In this document: one piece after another, positions 19,741-29,011 of the stretch | Layout of the letters: each line of letters opens with the position of its first letter | Numbering within the stretch: position 1 is the first letter of the stretch | DNA from: Pseudoruegeria sp. HB172150 | GTDB lineage: Bacteria; Pseudomonadota; Alphaproteobacteria; Rhodobacterales; Rhodobacteraceae | Length of the DNA: 64,000 nt | Reading direction: 5' to 3' | Assembly (NCBI RefSeq): GCF_013184805.1 | Contig: NZ_JAATNG010000001.1 | Coordinates: forward strand, 2,294,001-2,358,000 | Translations under genes and position numbers: made by a program | The notes under the pieces: model-generated | The model's input: the letters and a program-made list of their open reading frames with translations, nothing else | Database searches by the model: none | Told to the model about the DNA's origin: nothing

Positions 19741-20444
19741 GCGGGGCGCACCACACTCATCAGGTAACCGGTCTCTTCCTTCACGGTCCGCCAGGTGGCG
19801 ATTTCCGTGTCCGTTGCGTCAAGGACCGCGGTCATCACCGGCTCCGCCCCATCCCGCAGCAACGCGATCCGCGCCTTCAGCGGCTGGTAATAACGCTCCC
19901 AGGCCGCATCCGCGATCCGCCGGGTGCCCAGCACTTCGTAGCCTGCGGACTCGATCTGCATCGCGATCCCGGCCTCGTCCATTGTCGGGTAATCGTCCCA
20001 GAACAGCCGCGCCGCCTCGCTTGGTTCCTCGACAAAGAAGCAGGGCTCGGAGAACGCCACAGCGCCGCCTTTCGCCAGAACCGGCCGCCAGCAGTTCAGT
20101 GCCCGCGGAACGCCCAGGAAATACACAGCCCCGGCCGACCAGATGAAGTCATATGGGCCCTTCAGCTTCGCGATATCACCCTTGTAGGCCGTCACCCGCC
20201 GGTCGGTGCCGAACCGTGCCAGCACCTCGTCGACGAACCCTTTGTGCTTGTCCACCGCGGTGACATGTCCCTCCGGCGCCACTGCGAGCAGCGCCGGGAT
20301 ATCGCCCCCCGAACCGGAACCCGCGTCGCAGATTCGTGCCTCCGGCCCCAGCCCGGCCACGCCGGCGGCCCAGATCACATCCTCCGGTTCTCCCGGCCCT
20401 TCCCTGTCGAGCCCGGCATAGAGCTCGTAGAAGGCGTCCCTCAT
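19737..20444 (-). CDS. Class I SAM-dependent methyltransferase
   Basis: A 235-residue protein. SAM-binding motif I is ARICDAGSGSGGDIPALL, followed by an acidic residue at the end of strand 2 (VTAVDKHKGF). FIWSAGAVYFLGVPRALNCWRPVLAKGGAVAFSEP is the motif IV-VI region of the UbiE/Methyltransf_25 type. The substrate is unknown. It overlaps cimA by 4 bp, so translation is coupled. Confidence 0.85.
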   Translation of the reverse strand: MRDAFYELYAGLDREGPGEPEDVIWAAGVAGLGPEARICDAGSGSGGDIPALLAVAPEGHVTAVDKHKGFVDEVLARFGTDRRVTAYKGDIAKLKGPYDFIWSAGAVYFLGVPRALNCWRPVLAKGGAVAFSEPCFFVEEPSEAARLFWDDYPTMDEAGIAMQIESAGYEVLGTRRIADAAWERYYQPLKARIALLRDGAEPVMTAVLDATDTEIATWRTVKEETGYLMSVVRPA

Positions 20445-22060
20445 ACCGGCTGCGCTCCGTCGCGGATCAGCTTCCAGTTGATCGCATCAAGCAACGCCTC
20501 GAAGCTCGCGTCAACTATGTTCGGGCTGACCCCGACCGTCGACCAGCGCCGGCCCTCGGAATCCTCGCTGTCGATGATGACCCGCGTCACCGCCTCGGTG
20601 CCGCCCTGCGTGATCCGCACCTTGAAGTCCCGCAGCGCCATGTCGTCGATGAATTTCTGGTACGGCCCCAGATCCTTGCCCAGCGCCTTCCACAATGCGT
20701 TCACCGGCCCCCGGTCGCTGCCCTTCTCGTCGAGCGATTCGCTGGCAGAGATCATCCGCTCCCCCGCGATATCCGCCACCACCACCGCTTCCGAGTGGCT
20801 TTTCAGCCCAACCCCGTTCGGCCGCCGCTCAACCGTCACCGTATAGCGCAGCACATCGAAGAAATCCGGCTTCAGCCCCAGTTCCCCCCGCGCCAGCAGC
20901 TCGAACGACGCCTGCGCGGTGTCATAGGCATAGCCCTGCTCCTCCCGCTCCTTCACCGTCTCGAGGATCCGGCCCAGCCGCGGATCGCCCTTCTCGGTCT
21001 CCAGCCCCATATCCGCCAGCCGCGCGCGCAGGTTCGACTGCCCCGCCTGGTTCGACATGGGCACGATCCGCGCATTCCCCACCAGCGACGGCTCCACATG
21101 CTCGTAGGTCGACGGATCCTTTACGATCGCGCTCGCATGCAGCCCCGCCTTGTGCGCAAAGGCGCTGGCCCCGACATAGGGCGCCGACCGCAGCGACACC
21201 CGATTCAGGATCGAGTCGAGGCTCCGCGACGCCCGCGTCAGCCGCGCCAGCTGTTCCATCCCCACGCCGGTCTCGTACCGGCTCGCATAAGGCTCCTTCA
21301 GCAGCAGCGTCGGGATCAGCGTCACGAGGTTCGCGTTGCCGCACCGCTCGCCCAGCCCGTTCAGCGTCCCCTGCACCTGCCGCGCCCCCGCATCCACCGC
21401 CGCCAGCGTGTTCGCCACCGCATTCCCGGTATCGTCATGGGTGTGGATCCCCAGCCGCTCCCCCGGAATCCCCGCCGCGATCACCTCGCCCACGATCCGC
21501 GCCACCTCCGCCGGCAGCGTCCCGCCATTGGTGTCGCACAGCACGACCCACCGCGCCCCGGCCTCGCTGGCCGCAACAAGGCATTCCAGCGCGTACTCCG
21601 GGTTCGCCTTGTACCCGTCGAAGAAATGCTCCGCATCGAACAGCGCCTCGCGCCCCAGCTTCACCAGATGCGCCACCGAGGCCCGGATATTCTCGACATT
21701 CTCCTCCAACGTGATCCCCAGCGCCGTGGTCACGTGGAAATCATGCGTCTTGCCGACGAGGCACACCGCCGGCGTGCCCGCATTCACCACCCCCGCCAGC
21801 ACATCGTCATTCTCCGCAGACCGCCCGGCCCTCTTTGTCATGCCGAAGGCGGTAAACGTCGCCCGCGTCTGCGGCCGCTCCGCGAAAAACGCGCTGTCGG
21901 TCGGGTTCGCCCCCGGCCATCCGCCCTCGATATAGTCGATCCCCAGCGCATCCAGCGTCTCGGCGATCTTCACCTTGTCGGGCATCGAGAACTGCACCCC
22001 GTGCGTCTGCTGCCCGTCCCGCAGGGTCGTGTCGAAGAGATAAAGCCGCTCCCGCGTCAT
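20441..22060 (-). CDS. cimA: (R)-citramalate synthase
   Basis: A 539-residue member of the isopropylmalate synthase family. The first segment LYLFDTTLRDGQQTHGVQFS carries the metal-binding Asp and catalytic Arg. GIDYIEGGWPGANPTD, VVLCDTNGGTLP and GIHTHDDTGNAVANTLAAV are typical of CimA rather than LeuA. The C-terminal ~130 residues form the LeuA-type regulatory domain. It condenses pyruvate and acetyl-CoA to citramalate for threonine-independent isoleucine synthesis. A dispersed hairpin element sits immediately upstream. Confidence 0.94.
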   Translation of the reverse strand: MTRERLYLFDTTLRDGQQTHGVQFSMPDKVKIAETLDALGIDYIEGGWPGANPTDSAFFAERPQTRATFTAFGMTKRAGRSAENDDVLAGVVNAGTPAVCLVGKTHDFHVTTALGITLEENVENIRASVAHLVKLGREALFDAEHFFDGYKANPEYALECLVAASEAGARWVVLCDTNGGTLPAEVARIVGEVIAAGIPGERLGIHTHDDTGNAVANTLAAVDAGARQVQGTLNGLGERCGNANLVTLIPTLLLKEPYASRYETGVGMEQLARLTRASRSLDSILNRVSLRSAPYVGASAFAHKAGLHASAIVKDPSTYEHVEPSLVGNARIVPMSNQAGQSNLRARLADMGLETEKGDPRLGRILETVKEREEQGYAYDTAQASFELLARGELGLKPDFFDVLRYTVTVERRPNGVGLKSHSEAVVVADIAGERMISASESLDEKGSDRGPVNALWKALGKDLGPYQKFIDDMALRDFKVRITQGGTEAVTRVIIDSEDSEGRRWSTVGVSPNIVDASFEALLDAINWKLIRDGAQPV

Positions 22061-22070
22061 GCCCCGGCTC

Positions 22071-22117
22071 CTTCTTCTGGTCGAAAATATCCTCGGGGGG
22101 GCTCACCGCAGGTGAGC
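22071..22117 (-). repeat. Dispersed element, copy B (hairpin + GGATATTTTCGACCAGAAGA)
   Basis: On the minus strand a perfect 7-bp hairpin (GCTCACC-TGC-GGTGAGC) is followed by a C-run and GAGGATATTTTCGACCAGAA and GAAGG, ending 10 bp before the cimA ATG. The AGAAGG end may double as ribosome binding site. The rest of the 340-bp gap to cysS (to 22400) has only unlikely reading frames and I see no gene in it. Confidence 0.7.
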
Positions 22118-22400
22118 GGGGTCGAGGCGAACCGTGGCGCCGGTGGCGCCGCGAAAGTCGCCGAGACGAAAGCCCCCCTCGACACCAGCCCAACGGCACC
22201 ACCGCAAAACAGAGTCACCGCCCCACCCAAACGCCCCGCCCGGTGTTCACGCCGGGCTGCGCCGACCCGCCCCCACACGGGGCGGCGCTTCTGGCGAAGG
22301 CCCCGACAAGTTCGCGACACCGGGGCTTTGATGCCGGACATCTCACAGTTCCACCTCGCCCCGCGCGGTCCGGCGCTGCCCTCGTCTCTCAGCATACAGG

Positions 22401-23804
22401 TCATCTCAGCGCCTCCAGCTTCGCCGCGTCGAACTTCGGCCCCATCTCCCAGACAGCACCGTCCGCGGTGTCCTTCACGATCAGCCCCGCTTCCGCGAAC
22501 CCGTCCCGCAGCGCATCGGCGCGCGCGAAATCCTTCGCTTTCCGCGCCTCGGCCCGCGCCGTCAGCAGCGTCTCGACCAGCGCCGAGACATCGCCCGACA
22601 CTTCCACCGCCGCGTCCCAGCCGCTCAATGCCTCGGTCAGCAGCCCCATCACCTGCGCCGAGGCCAGGAAGACACCCTTCTCGTAAAAGCAGTCCTTCTG
22701 CGGGTTGGCAGAGATCGCCTTGGCCAGCGCGTGCAGCCGCGTGATCGCCCCTGCCGTGTTCAGGTCATCGGCGATCAGCGACACCACCTCCGCATCGGGC
22801 CCGGTCGGCTCCACGCCCGCGACCAGCCCGCGCCACTCGCGCAGCACGGCCTCAGCCTCCTCCCGCTTCTTCTCCGTCCAGTCCATCGGCTTCCGGTAAT
22901 GCGTCCCGAGAAAGACGAGCCGGATCACCTCGCCCGGAACGCCCTGTTCCAGCAGGTCGTGTACCGTGAAGAAGTTGCCGAGCGATTTCGACATCTTCTT
23001 CCCCTCGACCTGCAGCATCTCGTTATGCAGCCAGTAACGGGCGAAATCCCCTTCGGGATGCGCGCAGCAGGATTGCGCGATCTCGTTCTCGTGGTGCGGA
23101 AACATCAGGTCGTTGCCGCCGCCGTGGATATCGAACGACGGCCCCAGCAACTCGAACGCCATGGCCGAGCACTCGATATGCCAGCCCGGCCGCCCGCGGC
23201 CCCAGGGGCTCTCCCACCCCGGCAGATCGTCGGATGACGGCTTCCACAGCACGAAATCCATCGGGTCTTCCTTGTAGGGCGCCACCTCGACCCGCGCGCC
23301 CGCGATCATGTCGTCGACCGACCGCCCCGAAAGCTTCCCGTAAGCCTCGTATGACCTCACCCGGAACAGCACGTGACCTTCCGCCTCATAGGCATGGCCG
23401 GAGGCGATCAGCCCCTCGATCATCGCCACCATCTGCGGAATGAACCCGGTCGCGCGCGGCATCGCGTCCGGCTCCAGCGCGCCAAGCGCGCCCATGTCGT
23501 CCAGATACCACTGCGTCGTCTCCGCCGTGATCTCGCCGATCGGCCGCCCGGACTCCTTCGCGCGCGCATTAATCTTGTCGTCTACATCGGTGAAATTGCG
23601 GACATAAGTGACATGGTTCTCGCCATAGACATGCCGCAGCAGCCGGTAGAGAACGTCGAACACGACCACCGGCCGCGCGTTCCCCAGATGCGCCCGGTCA
23701 TAGACCGTCGGCCCACAGACATACATCCGCACATTGGCAGGATCGAGGGGCTCGAAAAGCTCCTTCTTCCGGGTCCGGGTGTTGTGGAGCCAAATATCGG
23801 TCAT
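22401..23804 (-). CDS. cysS: Cysteinyl-tRNA synthetase
   Basis: A 467-residue class I synthetase, start [17 protein letters not shown], preceded by GGAAG seven bases upstream; an in-frame codon six residues earlier is less likely. The zinc Cys and HIGH equivalent are in [16 protein letters not shown] (residues 30-45). [10 protein letters not shown] and the KMSKS motif KKMSKSLGN are present. It charges tRNA-Cys. Upstream lies a Cys-codon leader and hairpin described separately. Confidence 0.97.
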
Positions 23805-23870
23805 GTCGCTTCCTTCACGCACGCAAATGCAGCCGCGGCGGGCTTAGGCGATTTCGAAGATGAGAGGAAA

Positions 23871-23903
23871 CGAAAAGACCGGCCCGCCTGACGATGTCAG
23901 CGG
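23871..23903 (-). terminator. Terminator-like hairpin of the cysS leader
   Basis: On the minus strand, CCGCTGAC-ATC-GTCAG(G)CGG forms an 8-bp stem with one bulged G, followed by GCCGGTC-TTTT-CGTTT. The stop codon of the Cys leader peptide lies in its left arm. The bases after it (CCGGTCTT, 23882-23875) also pair with AAGACCGG at 23938-23931 inside the leader frame. GGCGGGC (23888-23882) can alternatively pair with GCCCGCC at 23843-23837, so mutually exclusive folds exist. Confidence 0.6.
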
Positions 23904-23941
23904 ATAATGCAGCAGATGCAGATGATGATTCCGGTCTTCAT
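23897..23941 (-). CDS. Putative 14-codon cysteine leader peptide of cysS
   Basis: ATG at 23941 to TGA at 23897 encodes MKTGIIICICCIIR, with three Cys codons (TGC) in four positions. It ends inside a terminator-like hairpin and is followed about 90 bp later by cysS. The match between the amino acid in the leader and the tRNA synthetase downstream is what a classical attenuator would show. No clear Shine-Dalgarno precedes it, but the predicted transcription start falls on the A of the ATG. It is too short for gene finders; translation is unproven. Confidence 0.55.
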   Translation of the reverse strand: MKTGIIICICCIIR

Positions 23942-23947
23942 GAAGTT

Positions 23948-23976
23948 CTCGTAACAGAGCGCCTTCGTCCTGCCAA
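23948..23976 (-). promoter_or_regulatory. Predicted promoter of the cysS leader transcript
   Basis: The minus strand reads TTGGCA (23976-23971), 17 bp, TACGAG (23953-23948). The -35 is good (5 of 6) and the -10 moderate. The expected start, seven bases downstream of the -10, coincides with the leader ATG at 23941, implying a leaderless mRNA. Confidence 0.4.
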
Positions 23977-24046
23977 GAGCATTGCACCGCCTCCGGCGCC
24001 CTGCAAAGGTGCGTCCGACACCTGAAAACACGGGAGAAACGGCACG

Positions 24047-24376
24047 ATGACCCGCGAAGAGATCGCCGCCTACTGCGAGGCACAGCAGGGGGTGACCCGC
24101 GACCAGTCCTTCGGCAAGGGCATCGACTGCTGGCGCGTCGGCCCCAGCGTCTTCGCGATGATGGCCGAGGGCGCCGATCGTCTATCGGTCAAGAGCGGCG
24201 CCGAGGACGCGGCGCAAAGCCTGTCCGCCTCCGCCCGCGCCGCGACCCTGCCGCACGGCAACTGGGCCACGCTGGACCTGTCCACCGGGGAGGAAGAGCT
24301 CAAGTCCCGCATCCTCGAAAGCTACCAGATGGCGCTCGAAAGCCTGAACCCGTCGGAGCGGGCGGCGCTGCCTTAG
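24047..24376 (+). CDS. MmcQ/YjbR family protein (first of two)
   Basis: A 109-residue MmcQ/YjbR protein: MTREEIAAYCEAQQGVTRDQSFGKGIDCWRVGPSVFAMM is the family N-terminus, and W..LDL.......E....I..SYQM.. the C-terminal half. The fold is cyto-nuclear/DNA-binding-like (CyaY-like topology), but no biochemical role is established. A related gene follows 375 bp downstream on the same strand. It is divergent from the cysS leader. Confidence 0.82.
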   Translation: MTREEIAAYCEAQQGVTRDQSFGKGIDCWRVGPSVFAMMAEGADRLSVKSGAEDAAQSLSASARAATLPHGNWATLDLSTGEEELKSRILESYQMALESLNPSERAALP

Positions 24377-24453
24377 GGCTTCCTTGCTGGCACGGTTCCG
24401 CGACGAGCATGCGAGAGCGGGCGTCGACACACGATCGGAAAAGCCTGTCTCTC

Positions 24454-24503
24454 GCGCTCTCGCAAAGCACAACCCGCCGCGCTCTCGCAAAGCACAACCC
24501 GCC
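24454..24503 (+). repeat. Tandem 25-bp duplication in a 374-bp gap
   Basis: Two exact, adjacent 25-bp units, each beginning GCGCTCTCGCAAAGCACAAC, lie in the intergenic stretch 24377-24750 between the two YjbR-type genes. The rest of that stretch shows no supported gene, only Ala/Arg-rich frames without family character. A related CTCGCAAAGCGC string recurs near 27551. Confidence 0.8.
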
Positions 24504-24750
24504 CGAATAGCGCCTGCCCGCCCCGACGGGCTGGCGCTTTGCCGACCGCGCGCGACAATCGGTCTGCGCGCGAACTTGGCTGGCATAAAGCGCTTCGCTC
24601 GACCGAAGCAGCGCCATCCCGTGGGCAGCCGCTCGCCCGGCTTGCAACCATGTTCGAAGGACCGCAACGCCGGTATCCCGTCATATTTTCGCGGGCAAGA
24701 CATCGCCGCCCCCCCTTCCCCGCACCCCCCGTTTCCGGCATCCTCTTCCC

Positions 24751-25086
24751 ATGACCCGCGACGACCTCAACGCCATCTGCGCCGCCCAGGCCGGTGCCGA
24801 AGTCTCCGACCCATGGGGCGGCGGCCATGACGCCTGGAAGGTCGGCGGCAAGATGTTCGCCTGCATCGGCGCGGTGCAGCCCGGCATCGCGGTCAAGACC
24901 GACTCGGTCGAAACCGCCGAGATGCTGATCGACGCCGGCCTCGCGCAGAAGGCCCGCTACATGCACCGCTCCTGGGTGCTGATCCCGCTGGAAACCGCGC
25001 CCGACGAGGCCCGCCACCGCATCGAGACCTCGTACCGCCTGATCCGCGACAAGCTGCCCAAGAAGGTACAGGCCCAGCTCGGCTGA
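24751..25086 (+). CDS. MmcQ/YjbR family protein (second of two)
   Basis: A 111-residue paralogue of the protein at 24047: MTRDDLNAICAAQAGAEVSDPWGGGHDAWKVGGKMFACIG, then the family pattern around MHRSWVLIPLE and the C-terminal HRIETSYRLIRDKLPKK. The two share the MTR-(E/D)-(E/D) start and overall layout but have diverged strongly. No catalytic residues are known for the family. It is probably monocistronic, with a dispersed repeat 125 bp downstream. Confidence 0.82.
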   Translation: MTRDDLNAICAAQAGAEVSDPWGGGHDAWKVGGKMFACIGAVQPGIAVKTDSVETAEMLIDAGLAQKARYMHRSWVLIPLETAPDEARHRIETSYRLIRDKLPKKVQAQLG

Positions 25087-25211
25087 GCGCGTCACCCTCA
25101 CTACGGTTCCGGTTCTACCCCGCAAACAGGACCGCGACCGTGCCAGGGGCCGCACCCACCTGCACCCTCAACGACCGATCATTTTCCGTGATGCTCCCCA
25201 TTCCGAAAACT

Positions 25212-25287
25212 GCGCGTCCCCACCGACGTTTGCGCTACCATGCCTGAAATCAATGACTTGACCCCCCGTCCCCATGGGGACGCCCCC
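25212..25287 (+). repeat. 77-bp dispersed repeat, copy 1
   Basis: This stretch is about 90% identical to the reverse complement of 37474-37550. The last 39 bases, from AATCAATGACTTGACC through the 16-bp palindrome CGTCCCCATGGGGACG to CCCC, are identical. The first part shares GACGTTTGCGCTA. Here the element lies downstream of the second YjbR gene and upstream of the aminotransferase. It encodes nothing. Confidence 0.88.
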
Positions 25288-25354
25288 GGAAACCGGCCCG
25301 AGTCCGGCCCGACAGCCGATTGACAAAAACGCCCGCCCATGGCCCCGTCCGGCC

Positions 25355-26530
25355 ATGAAGCTCTCGACCCGCCTCACCACCCTCACCCCCGATTCCGACG
25401 GCTGGGGCGTCTACTACCGCGCCAAGGCCATGATCGCCGCCGGCACCCCGGTGATCGAGCTCACCATCGGCGAGCACGATACCCCGACCGACCCGGCGAT
25501 CCTCGACGCCCTCCACGCCGCCGCCCGCGCCGGCCACACCGGCTACGCCTCCGTCCCCGGCACCAACGCCCTGCGCGACGCCATCGCCGCCCGCGTCACC
25601 GAGCGGACCGGCGTCGCCACGGCCCGCGACAACATCCTCGTCACCGCCGGCGGCCAGGCCGCCCTCCTCGCCACCCATTCCGCCGTCTGCGACCCCGGCG
25701 ACACCGCCCTTTTCATCGACCCGTTCTACGTCACCTATCCCGGCACGATCCGCGCCGTCGGCGCCGTCCCCCGCGCCATCGCGGCCATGCCCGAGGATGG
25801 CTTCCAGCCCCGCCCCGGCCCCATCGCCGCCGCCGCGGCCGGCGCCCGCTCCCTCCTGATCAACTCGCCCCACAACCCCACCGGCGTCATCTATTCCCGC
25901 GACACCCTCGAAGGCATCGCCGCCGTCTGCCGCGATCAGGATCTCTGGCTGATCTCCGACGAGGTCTACGACACGCAGGTCTGGCACGGCGACCACCTCA
26001 GCCCCCGCGCCCTGCCCGGCATGGAGGACCGCACCCTCGCCATCGGCTCGATGTCGAAGAGCCACGCGATGACCGGCAGCCGCATCGGCTGGATCGCCGG
26101 ACCGGAGGAGGCCATCGACCACCTGTCGAACCTGTCGACCCACACCACCTACGGCGTCCCCGGCTACATTCAGGATGCCGCCCTCTTCGCCCTCGAACAG
26201 GGCACGGCGTTCGAGAGGCGCATCGCCGAACCGTTCCGCCGCCGCCGCGATCTGGCCCTGTCGATCGTCGCGAAGTCGAACCGGATCGTCCCAGTCCCCT
26301 CGGGCGGCGCCATGTATCTGATGCTCGACATCCGGCGCACCGGCCAGACCGGCGAAGGCTTCGCCAACGCCCTGCTCGAGTCGGAGCATATCGGCGTCAT
26401 GCCCGGCGAAAGCTTCGGCAAATGCGCCGCCGGCCATATCCGCGTCGCCCTAACCGTTCCCGACGACCAGCTCACCGATGCCCTGCACCGCCTCGTCCGC
26501 TTTGCCGAAGGATTAGCCCATGCCGCATGA
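25355..26530 (+). CDS. PLP-dependent class I/II aminotransferase
   Basis: A 391-residue aminotransferase, start MKLSTRLTTLTPDSDGWGVYY; the longer frame upstream runs into the dispersed repeat and is rejected. The PLP-binding Lys is in IGSMSKSHAMTGSRIGW. INSPHNPTGVIYS and WLISDEVYDTQVW carry the conserved Asn and the Asp/Tyr. The Arg near the end (GHIRVALT) binds the substrate carboxylate. The substrate is undetermined. It overlaps the next gene by 11 bp, suggesting a two-gene operon. Confidence 0.9.
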   Translation: MKLSTRLTTLTPDSDGWGVYYRAKAMIAAGTPVIELTIGEHDTPTDPAILDALHAAARAGHTGYASVPGTNALRDAIAARVTERTGVATARDNILVTAGGQAALLATHSAVCDPGDTALFIDPFYVTYPGTIRAVGAVPRAIAAMPEDGFQPRPGPIAAAAAGARSLLINSPHNPTGVIYSRDTLEGIAAVCRDQDLWLISDEVYDTQVWHGDHLSPRALPGMEDRTLAIGSMSKSHAMTGSRIGWIAGPEEAIDHLSNLSTHTTYGVPGYIQDAALFALEQGTAFERRIAEPFRRRRDLALSIVAKSNRIVPVPSGGAMYLMLDIRRTGQTGEGFANALLESEHIGVMPGESFGKCAAGHIRVALTVPDDQLTDALHRLVRFAEGLAHAA

Positions 26531-27332
26531 CCCCGGATCCGACTTCCGCGCCCTGCACAAGCCCGGCGATCCGTTCATCCTCGCCAACGCCTGGGACGCG
26601 GGCTCGGCCAAGATGCTCGCCGCCCTTGGCGCGCAGGCCATCGCCACTTCTTCGGCGGCCCATGCCTTCACCCTCGGCCGGCCCGACGGCAACGTCACCC
26701 GGGACGAGGCGCTGGCCCATGCCGCCGACCTCGTCGCCGCCACGCCGCTCCCCGTCTCCGGCGATTTCGAGGACGGCTTCGGCGAGGCGCCCGAGACCTG
26801 CGCCGAAACCGTCCGCCTCGCCGCCGAGGCGGGTCTCGCCGGCATCTGCATCGAGGACATTTCCTCCGATACCGGAAAAACCTACCCGGCCGACCTGTCG
26901 GCCGAGCGCATCCGCGCCGCCGCTGCCGCCGCCCGCGCCCTGCCGAAGGATTTCGTGCTTATCGCCCGCGCCGACGGCGTCCTGAAGGGCAGCTACGGGA
27001 TGGACGAAGCCCTCGCCCGCATCCGCGCCTTCGACGCGGCCGGCGCCGACGGGCTCTATGTGCCGATGCCCCCCGACATGGCCGCCCTTGCCGAGGTAGT
27101 CAAAGCCACGACGAAACCCGTCAACGCCCTCGCCGCCGGCCCCTTCGCCAAGGTTTCCCGCGCAGAATTCGCCGCCATCGGCATCGCCCGCATCTCGCTC
27201 GGCTCGGCGCTCGCCCGCGTAACCCACCGCGTCATCCTCGACGCCGCCAAGGCAATGTTCGAGGCGGGCGATTTCACCCCCCTGACCCAGGGCGCCCCCG
27301 GCAAGAAGATCGACGAACTCCTGACCGGGTGA
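26520..27332 (+). CDS. Isocitrate lyase / PEP mutase family enzyme
   Basis: A 270-residue TIM-barrel protein of the ICL/PEPM superfamily. It starts with FRALHKPGDPFILANAWDAGSAKMLAALG and has the metal-site segment PLPVSGDFEDGFG, then GICIEDISSDTG and FVLIARADGVL. The KKCGH-type motif of isocitrate lyase is absent, so it is of the PEP mutase/oxaloacetate-hydrolase-like branch; the C-C or P-C substrate is unknown. It is co-transcribed with the aminotransferase by overlap. Confidence 0.87.
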   Translation: MPHDPGSDFRALHKPGDPFILANAWDAGSAKMLAALGAQAIATSSAAHAFTLGRPDGNVTRDEALAHAADLVAATPLPVSGDFEDGFGEAPETCAETVRLAAEAGLAGICIEDISSDTGKTYPADLSAERIRAAAAAARALPKDFVLIARADGVLKGSYGMDEALARIRAFDAAGADGLYVPMPPDMAALAEVVKATTKPVNALAAGPFAKVSRAEFAAIGIARISLGSALARVTHRVILDAAKAMFEAGDFTPLTQGAPGKKIDELLTG

Positions 27333-27610
27333 GTCCGCGAAGGGTCAAGGATGGCCCAAAGGGCCACCGCCGCAGGCGCGCGCAGCGTCCTTGAGGCTTC
27401 GGGGACTCGTCCCGACACTCGACAAGGCGCCTTGAGGGCAGACCTGCCCCTCAAGCGTCTCTCGGCAAATTCTCCCGTTCAAGGCATATCCCGGCCCGTC
27501 CGTTTCAGGCGCCCGCGCGCTTTGCGGGCAGGGCTGGGTGGGCGTGAGGCTCGCAAAGCGCGCGTTCCCGCAGCTTGCCAACCTCTCCGCCGCATGCGCA
27601 GATGCGCGCC

Positions 27611-29011
27611 ATGAACCACGATGATCTGAAAGACTGGTCGAAACGCGCCGCCGACTGGGCGCATGAATACCACGCCACACTCCGCGATCGCCCGGTCCGC
27701 GCCGACACCACGCCCGGCAAAACCGCCGCGAAGCTCCCCGCCAGCCCGCCGGAGCAGCCGGAAAGCCCCGAAGCCATCTTCGAGGATTTCAAGCGCATCG
27801 TCCCAGACGCGATGACCCACTGGCAGCACCCGCGTTTCTTCGCCTATTTCCCGTCGAACGCCTCGCCCGCCTCGATGTGGGCCGAGCAGCTGGCCAACGC
27901 CATGGCCGCGCAATGCATGCTGTGGCAGACCTCGCCCGCCGCGACCGAGATCGAACAGGTCACCACGGACTGGCTGCGCCAGGCCCTCGGCCTCGCCGAT
28001 CACTTCGCCGGCACCATCCACGACAGCGCCACCACGGCCACGCTCTGCGCCGTCCTGACCATGCGCGACCGTGCCAGCGGCTGGGCCAGCGTCGAGGACG
28101 GGCTAAGCGGCCAGCAGCTCCGCATCTACGCCTCCGCCCAGACCCACAGCTCCGTCGACAAGGCGGTGCGCCTCGCGGGCATCGGCCAGAAGAACCTCGT
28201 GAAGATCGCCACCGACGCCGATTACGCGATGGATCCGCAGGCGCTCGACACGGCGATCCGCGAAGACATCGCCGCCGGCCGCAAGCCCGCCGGTGTCGTC
28301 CTTTGCACCGGCGGCACCTCGATCGGGGCGTTCGATCCCATCTCCGCCTGCATCGACGTGGCCAAGGCCCACGACCTCTACACCCATGTCGACGCCGCCT
28401 GGGCCGGCTCCGCGATGATCTGCCCCGAGTTCCGCCGCCTCTGGGAAGGCGTCGACCGGGCCGACAGCATCGTCTTCAACCCGCATAAATGGCTCGGCGC
28501 GCAGTTCGACTGCGCCGTCCAGTTCCTCGCCGATCCGGCGCCGCAGATCCGCTCGCTCGGCCTGCGCCCCGACTACCTGCAGACCATCGGCCAGGAAGAG
28601 ATCGTCAATTTCAACGAATGGACTGTCCCGCTCGGCCGCCGCTTCCGCGCGCTGAAGCTGTGGTTCGTGCTGCGCGCCTACGGTCTCGAAGACCTGCGCG
28701 GCCGCATCCGCAACCATGTCGCCTGGACCGCCGAACTCGCGGAAAAATTCCGCGCCACCCAAGGCTTCGAGATCGTCACCGAACCGCGCCTCGCCCTTTT
28801 CACCTTCCGCTACGCGCCCGAAGGCGGCGATGCGGACGCACTGACCGAGAAACTGCTGGCAAGGATCAACGACGACGGCCGTGTGTACCTGACCCAGACA
28901 AAGCATGACGACAAATTCGTCATCCGCATGACCACCGGCAGCTTCAACTGTACCCGCGACGACGTGATGATGGTCCATGCCGTCGCAACCGAACTGGCGC
29001 AGGGTCTGTAA
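27611..29011 (+). CDS. PLP-dependent aromatic-amino-acid-decarboxylase-like protein
   Basis: A 466-residue group II decarboxylase. The start MNHDDLKDWSKRAADW is preferred over an upstream ATG that lacks family sequence. Family signatures are HPRFFAYFPSNASPASMWAEQL, HSSVDKAVRLAG, LYTHVDAAWAGSAMICPEFR and the PLP Lys in IVFNPHKWLGAQFDC. It probably decarboxylates an aromatic or related amino acid; the exact substrate cannot be told. It ends in TAA next to a terminator shared with the convergent outer-membrane gene. Confidence 0.9.
   Translation: MNHDDLKDWSKRAADWAHEYHATLRDRPVRADTTPGKTAAKLPASPPEQPESPEAIFEDFKRIVPDAMTHWQHPRFFAYFPSNASPASMWAEQLANAMAAQCMLWQTSPAATEIEQVTTDWLRQALGLADHFAGTIHDSATTATLCAVLTMRDRASGWASVEDGLSGQQLRIYASAQTHSSVDKAVRLAGIGQKNLVKIATDADYAMDPQALDTAIREDIAAGRKPAGVVLCTGGTSIGAFDPISACIDVAKAHDLYTHVDAAWAGSAMICPEFRRLWEGVDRADSIVFNPHKWLGAQFDCAVQFLADPAPQIRSLGLRPDYLQTIGQEEIVNFNEWTVPLGRRFRALKLWFVLRAYGLEDLRGRIRNHVAWTAELAEKFRATQGFEIVTEPRLALFTFRYAPEGGDADALTEKLLARINDDGRVYLTQTKHDDKFVIRMTTGSFNCTRDDVMMVHAVATELAQGL

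Follow-up and report, generated by a model that had tools for sequence, protein, structure and literature searches.

The short reading frame in front of cysS in Pseudoruegeria sp. HB172150 is probably the leader of a ribosome-mediated attenuator that reads both isoleucine and cysteine codons and controls the cysS-cimA operon. The conservation of the leader, the association of its codons with particular genes, and the pairing of its RNA support this reading, from which we infer ribosome stalling, transcription termination, and a response to starvation. In the window, the whole 64,000-nucleotide stretch of DNA that was analyzed, the leader frame, MKTGIIICICCIIR, runs from ATG to TGA over 14 codons at positions 23941 to 23897 of the minus strand, on which all features below lie unless noted. 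It is followed by cysS, the cysteinyl-tRNA synthetase gene (22401 to 23804, starting at 23804; TIGR00435, 449 bits, cutoff of 340), and the next gene is cimA, encoding citramalate synthase of the isoleucine pathway (20441 to 22060; TIGR00977, 580 bits, cutoff of 450). Leader codons 5 to 13 (23903 to 23929), the control codons, read Ile Ile Ile Cys Ile Cys Cys Ile Ile; as in known attenuators, this short frame abounds in codons that belong to the pathways it would regulate. The three TGC codons in four positions (codons 8, 10, and 11) picked out by an earlier sequence-only reading were confirmed; that reading left cimA and the six ATC/ATT codons (5, 6, 7, 9, 12, and 13) unremarked. Rfam 15, searched over positions 20000 to 28000, gave only two microRNA matches, both below the gathering score and neither inside the leader, and a T-box or other Rfam riboswitch identity was rejected, the leader having no Rfam 15 family match. 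Divergent from cysS, on the plus strand, are two small genes (24047 to 24376 and 24751 to 25086) that by eye resemble each other; the former has no NCBIfam match.

A CysS query found matches in 389 of 395 Rhodobacteraceae genomes, and the leader was surveyed at 90 family loci (30 plus 60 more). An Ile/Cys leader is present at 84 of them, 77 above score and 7 accepted by eye, and was not found at the other six (L022, L035, L036, L061, L085, and L089). The comparison of cysS upstream regions that had been proposed as a check on the sequence-only reading thus came out in its favor, with compensating changes in one helix (P3) and supported pairing in another (P1), both described below. Throughout the 90-locus set, cimA follows cysS except at L011, L035, L061, and L070, the last of which is a contig end. 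Among 80 named family loci, 68 score at least 7 for the leader; the 90-locus and 80-locus sets overlap (L154 and L055 have the same leader), and counts of cimA association are therefore restricted to unique upstream sequences. At three AT-rich family loci that have cysS and cimA together (L103, L104, and L110), no leader is recognizable.

Position-specific conservation across 77 loci, numbered so that +1 is the A of the leader ATG, outlines a promoter with the −35 element TTGGCA (23971 to 23976, first T at −35) and the extended −10 element TGTTAC (23951 to 23956, T at −12 and A at −11). The conserved positions are T at −35 (87%), G at −33 (74%), T/A at −12 (96%), A at −11 (66%), and C at −1 (91%). 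A strict promoter scan, which requires the −10 element to end in T, found none. The conserved spacing suggests that transcription starts on or next to the A of the leader ATG, in agreement with the leaderless mRNA proposed by the sequence-only reading. Between the terminator and cysS lies a second promoter-like block, TTTCC ... TCGCCTA (23845 to 23870), in which TTtCc is followed by 11 variable bases and then AAgTTGcTAAGCCCGC, with TT 23 bases ahead of TA; when loci are aligned on the block, TT stands at 96 to 97% (80 of 84 loci). By eye, TTYCC...TTG[CA]TA is kept at equal spacing at four loci that lack the leader (L036, L085, L089, and L100). The block is a candidate, as yet unproven, for a second, unattenuated promoter that would secure basal cysS expression.

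In the leader RNA, helix P1 joins AAGACCGG, within leader codons 2 to 4 (23931 to 23938), to CCGGTCTT (23875 to 23882) and ends in a terminator-like T-run (23873 to 23876). The 5′ strand of helix P2 (23896 to 23903) includes the leader stop codon and pairs with 23884 to 23892. Both features had been anticipated: early leader bases do pair past a hairpin, and the TGA does lie inside one, the inner hairpin P2. The sequence GGCGGGC (23882 to 23888) is common to P2 and to an alternative helix, P3, whose 3′ strand is GCCCGCC (23837 to 23843). Counted from the leader A, P1 joins bases 4 to 11 with 60 to 67, the control codons span 13 to 39, P2 joins 39 to 46 with 50 to 58, and the T-run covers 66 to 69.

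Folding energy alone was not decisive (z of −1.93 for the window leader; 8 of 200 shuffles fold equally well). Because RNAalifold returned no structure on an 84-row local alignment, the helices were tested by permuting partners. P1 strands, taken as leader codons 2 to 4 and the stretch that follows GCGGGC, pair better with their own partners than with permuted ones, both in duplex energy (z of −6.5, 0 of 5,000 permutations, 77 loci) and in helix length (z of 8.0, 0 of 5,000, 73 loci); kinship among sequences can inflate this test, and thinning to 32 loci with distinct 5′ strands, a partial answer, left helix length at z of 4.6 (0 of 5,000). For P2, 92.8% of cells are paired in the outer helix, 69.4% in the inner helix, and 83.2% in the whole (67 rows), a total matched by 3 of 500 shuffles and lowered to at most 62% by sliding; pair changes on both sides were not above shuffles in these 67 rows (162 of 500 reach the observed value). 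P3 also prefers its own partner (z of 7.3), with a helix of at least 6 bases at 66 of 73 loci and 7-base helices kept through changes in both strands at L012, L055, and L065; it is broken at L046 and L037. The leader shows mutually exclusive helices that are under selection, as expected of an attenuator (z of 8.0 for P1 and 7.3 for P3). Ahead of cysS, a stem is followed by a T-rich stretch that may serve as an intrinsic terminator. The tail is fair, not strong: counting on from base four past GCGGGC, the fractions of T are 0.94, 0.24, 0.72, 0.72, 0.57, and 0.59. The T-run is brief, with C's interspersed, and some relatives lack four consecutive T's. A strict terminator scan, which demands loops of 3 to 8 bases, found none.

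These elements suggest the following mechanism. Since the transcript appears to begin on the A of the leader ATG, the ribosome would load on a leaderless frame, for which trpL of Sinorhizobium meliloti, as described in PMC7298713, offers a precedent. When charged tRNA-Ile and tRNA-Cys are both plentiful, the ribosome would complete the leader and depart; once it is gone, or if it never arrived, P1 would stack on P2 and transcription would terminate ahead of cysS. When either charged tRNA is scarce, the ribosome would slow within the Ile/Cys block, which is flanked by the 5′ strand of P1 and that of P2 and spans about one ribosome footprint. The footprint of a bacterial ribosome extends ∼15 bases to either side of its P site; at codons 5 to 8 it would cover much of the P1 5′ strand, and at codons 10 to 13 it would reach the 5′ strand of P2. 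As codons 2 to 4 pair with the strand before the T-rich run, a ribosome slowed at Ile or Cys should block the terminator: by covering part of one or both 5′ strands, it would let polymerase continue into cysS and cimA. The Ile codons would serve cimA and the Cys codons cysS, and the leader would act as an OR gate.

A rather unlikely alternative, though the best of those that we considered, retains dual sensing but replaces intrinsic termination as the output: stalling would shift the balance between P2 and P3, like the classical 2:3 versus 3:4 choice, and act via Rho or cysS translation. The sharing of GGCGGGC by P2 and P3, the pairing statistics and compensating changes of P3, and the weak T-run speak for such a switch, as does the leader stop codon within the P2 5′ strand; classical attenuators have theirs in the corresponding strand. 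However, P1 is itself supported and ends in T-rich sequence (94% and 72% at two positions), while P3 has no T-run after it and is broken at two loci. Furthermore, the P3 3′ strand ends at least ∼20 bases before cysS (block start at least 37), leaving the likely ribosome site free. Of the competing folds proposed by the sequence-only reading, the pairing of GGCGGGC (23888 to 23882) with GCCCGCC (23843 to 23837) is borne out by compensating changes, but P3 is not a simple antiterminator formed before polymerase reaches the terminator, because its second strand follows the T-run.

Whichever helices carry the output, the dual attenuator that we favor makes isoleucine and cysteine its two inputs. 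Among 1,057 codons after the start in the 84 leaders, Ile accounts for 331 (31%) and Cys for 246 (23%), compared with 4.1% and 0.94% in the cysS genes that follow. The Ile codons comprise 186 ATT, 141 ATC, and 4 ATA, and codons −8, −7, and −6 from the stop are often ATT and often ATC. Leu, Val, Met, and Phe together supply 35 codons, so that Ile makes up 331 of the 366 Ile/Leu/Val/Met/Phe leader codons versus 15% of those residues in cysS. This excess, together with the mixture of ATT and ATC at several positions, indicates that the amino acid, not hydrophobicity, is conserved. Codon −3 is Ile in 80 of 84 leaders, and its spelling as ATT in 78 of them points to a constraint at the nucleotide level there. 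The tandem Cys codons rank with the most fixed positions (−5 in 64 of 84 and −4 in 60 of 84), and the first codons of the leader vary together with P1.

Isoleucine codons follow cimA. We compared unique loci, taking as loci without adjacent cimA those with at least 700 bases visible after cysS and no cimA there. A frame with at least three Ile codons occurs at 138 of 160 unique cimA-adjacent loci (shuffled mean of 7.8) versus 1 of 16 without (Fisher P = 7e−11), and the one exception, L099, is chance-like. Locus L117 (four Ile and two Cys; from G095, in which cimA had no match), with 658 bases beyond cysS, is ambiguous: a 650-base cutoff makes it the 1 of 17, a 700-base cutoff leaves it out of the 16, and including it would give 2 of 17. 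A frame with at least two Cys codons occurs at 142 of 160 cimA-adjacent loci versus 6 of 16 without; Cys frames are rarer in the latter because a leader of any kind is missing from 11 of the 16, and these 11 would not alone separate Ile from Cys. Five loci without adjacent cimA keep a Cys leader with no or one Ile: MDWICCLCRA at L011 and L133, MEWICCPC at L130, MTETATLRCICRLR at L172, and MTKQPASAQSFCSRR at L121. Conversely, one cysS-cimA operon (L107) has a leader, MNAPNRIIGIIIGG, with no Cys. The Ile-rich frame is missing at 15 of 168 adjacent loci when two Ile codons are demanded and at 22 of 160 when three are.

At a threshold of 1e−60, cimA has no match in 18 of the 395 family genomes. 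In seven of these (G107, G141, G143, G166, G179, G211, and G282) the contig ends in or just after cysS; they have ordinary leaders, and we treated these absences as assembly gaps. In G375, cysS was not found either. Nine genomes remain as cimA absences (G010, G044, G098, G136, G273, G285, G336, G374, and G384), and the 16 loci without adjacent cimA consist of these nine, G042, in which cimA lies elsewhere, and L130, L133, L135, L155, L172, and L201, for which absence was judged from the cysS 3′ flank only. In G042 and G068, cimA has no leader, nor does cysS of G042. In G268, cimA gives a nearly full-length match on each of two contigs.

The case that each set of codons serves its own gene is strongest in another alphaproteobacterial family (f9), in which cysS and cimA are separate; most of these genes carry a leader with their own codons, which makes the family a ready-made control. 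Of 40 f9 genomes searched, 39 yielded cimA and 36 yielded cysS; the comparison drew on the best 30 loci for each gene (29 scored for cysS). Among these best loci, an ATG frame with at least three Ile codons precedes 28 of 30 cimA genes versus 0 of 29 cysS genes (Fisher P = 8e−15), and a frame with at least two Cys codons precedes 1 of 30 versus 22 of 29 (P = 3e−9); both P values overstate the case because the thresholds were chosen after viewing the data and the species are related (four genera per set). The 28 Ile leaders (18 distinct) contain no Cys, and the 22 Cys leaders (20 distinct) contain seven Ile altogether. Separate f9 cimA genes (L222, L224, and L325 to L354) have Ile-only leaders, often ending in ...GLIISG, which precede a GC-rich stretch with a possible stop-codon hairpin; by eye, a complementary pair similar to P3 of the window seems to follow some of them. 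In the class sample, among 23 separate cimA genes, a frame with at least four Ile codons was found at the two f9 loci only, which, like the lack of a leader at either gene of G042, speaks against a general pattern. Separate f9 cysS genes (L303 and L355 to L383) have Cys-rich frames such as MTCRCC... or ...TTCCRTS..., and a few of these frames are followed, by eye, by a GC hairpin and a short T-run. A cysteine attenuator belonging to f9 cysS itself is possible.

The published reading of the motif uORFC-8-2, a cysteine-only attenuator of cysS in which Ile codons would be incidental, was our starting point and was dropped after the gene-association tests; we now regard it as improbable. The well-conserved tandem Cys codons and the place of cysS as first gene fit it, and it is the reading given by the one paper found on the motif (PMC8632094). 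Yet Ile codons are commoner than Cys codons and rare without adjacent cimA, codon −3 is nearly always Ile, Ile stands alone before f9 cimA, and L107 has Ile without Cys. Relatives thus uphold the Cys-codon attenuator before cysS that the sequence-only reading proposed, but not its restriction to cysteine. Least credible is that the Ile codons are no sensor but belong to an arrest peptide or form a structural spacer, in the shape of an A/U-rich loop that stays unstructured: the near-fixed ATT codon implies some nucleotide constraint, but f9 Cys leaders mostly lack Ile, f9 Ile leaders lack Cys, and the first codons vary with P1, as they do in no arrest peptide that we know of.

The dual Ile/Cys leader extends beyond Rhodobacteraceae. 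Across the class, 116 of the 192 genomes searched have cimA; cysS lies beside cimA at 19 of 27 loci from other families, and two of the remaining eight are short contigs. A frame with at least three Ile codons and one Cys codon precedes 8 of 18 nearer operons outside the family (shuffled mean of 0.17), with leaders such as MKTAATIWCICCTIIIS (L242 and L243, one genus) and MSARIAQIIITAGNTCCCRSKICA (L254), and only 1 of 22 more distant cysS-cimA operons (shuffled, 0.53). Among 12 family loci of low CysS identity (L103 to L114), five leaders are Ile-rich with no or one Cys (L105, L106, L107, L111, and L113), that of L108 combines five Ile with two Cys, those of L112 and L114 contain more Cys, and four loci lack a clear leader. 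Of the two halves, the isoleucine one may be older. A broader proposal, to which we give slightly less than even chances, is that the leader is an old alphaproteobacterial module in which a single translating ribosome applies OR logic to two unrelated amino acids, and that its codons have been gained, lost, and shared as cysS and cimA joined and separated, recording operon history. The dual attenuator would couple the supply of charged tRNA-Cys and the synthesis of isoleucine through one switch; the dual reading of the leader gives a prediction that is testable codon by codon.

The citramalate route carries 80% of the isoleucine flux on pyruvate in Roseobacter denitrificans, in which cimA is unannotated, according to PMC2749216. 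The cysteine half of the control is already in print, although the sequence-only reading knew of no cysS attenuator described in Rhodobacteraceae: uORFC-8-2, with 145 examples, was proposed as a cysteine-only attenuator of cysS in Rhodobacterales (PMC8632094). As that motif is described, the present leader shares with it the position upstream of cysS (TIGR00435) in Rhodobacterales (the named relatives place the window in Rhodobacteraceae), an ATG uORF, tandem Cys codons (10 and 11), two stems, the first of which holds the Cys codons, and a final 3′ U-run; we take the leader to be uORFC-8-2, matched by description. The tandem Cys codons of uORFC-8-2 are usually codons 14 and 15, whereas relatives of the window leader have them mostly at ∼8 to 12; "usually" does not make this a defining position, and a different start or numbering is possible. 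The motif was called exclusive to Rhodobacterales, but dual-codon leaders occur here also in other families. The word "isoleucine" does not occur in the searched text of PMC8632094, and cimA is absent from its uORFC-8-2 passages; in the open-licence literature, mostly titles and abstracts, none of the papers listed mentions control by isoleucine or a dual Ile/Cys reading. The isoleucine half and the link to cimA thus appear to be new and extend the published cysteine-only reading.

Multivalent attenuators control ilvGMEDA and thrABC of Escherichia coli, and to our knowledge each known multicodon attenuator reads amino acids that share a pathway. In actinobacteria, ilvB leaders contain codons for Ile, Val, and Leu, as described in PMC1262725. 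The present leader resembles all of these in that a single leader carries codons for more than one amino acid. Unlike theirs, which belong to one pathway or branch, its two amino acids are unrelated, and it precedes a tRNA synthetase gene for one amino acid and a gene for the synthesis of the other. Leaders of mycobacterial cys operons, as described in PMC1262725, likewise consist of a short uORF that contains runs of Cys codons but differ in the genes controlled and in lacking a conserved terminator hairpin. The trpL leader of S. meliloti, as described in PMC7298713, is also alphaproteobacterial, has 14 residues, and belongs to an RNA that starts on the ATG, as appears to be the case here, but its codons are for Trp and its gene is trpE(G).
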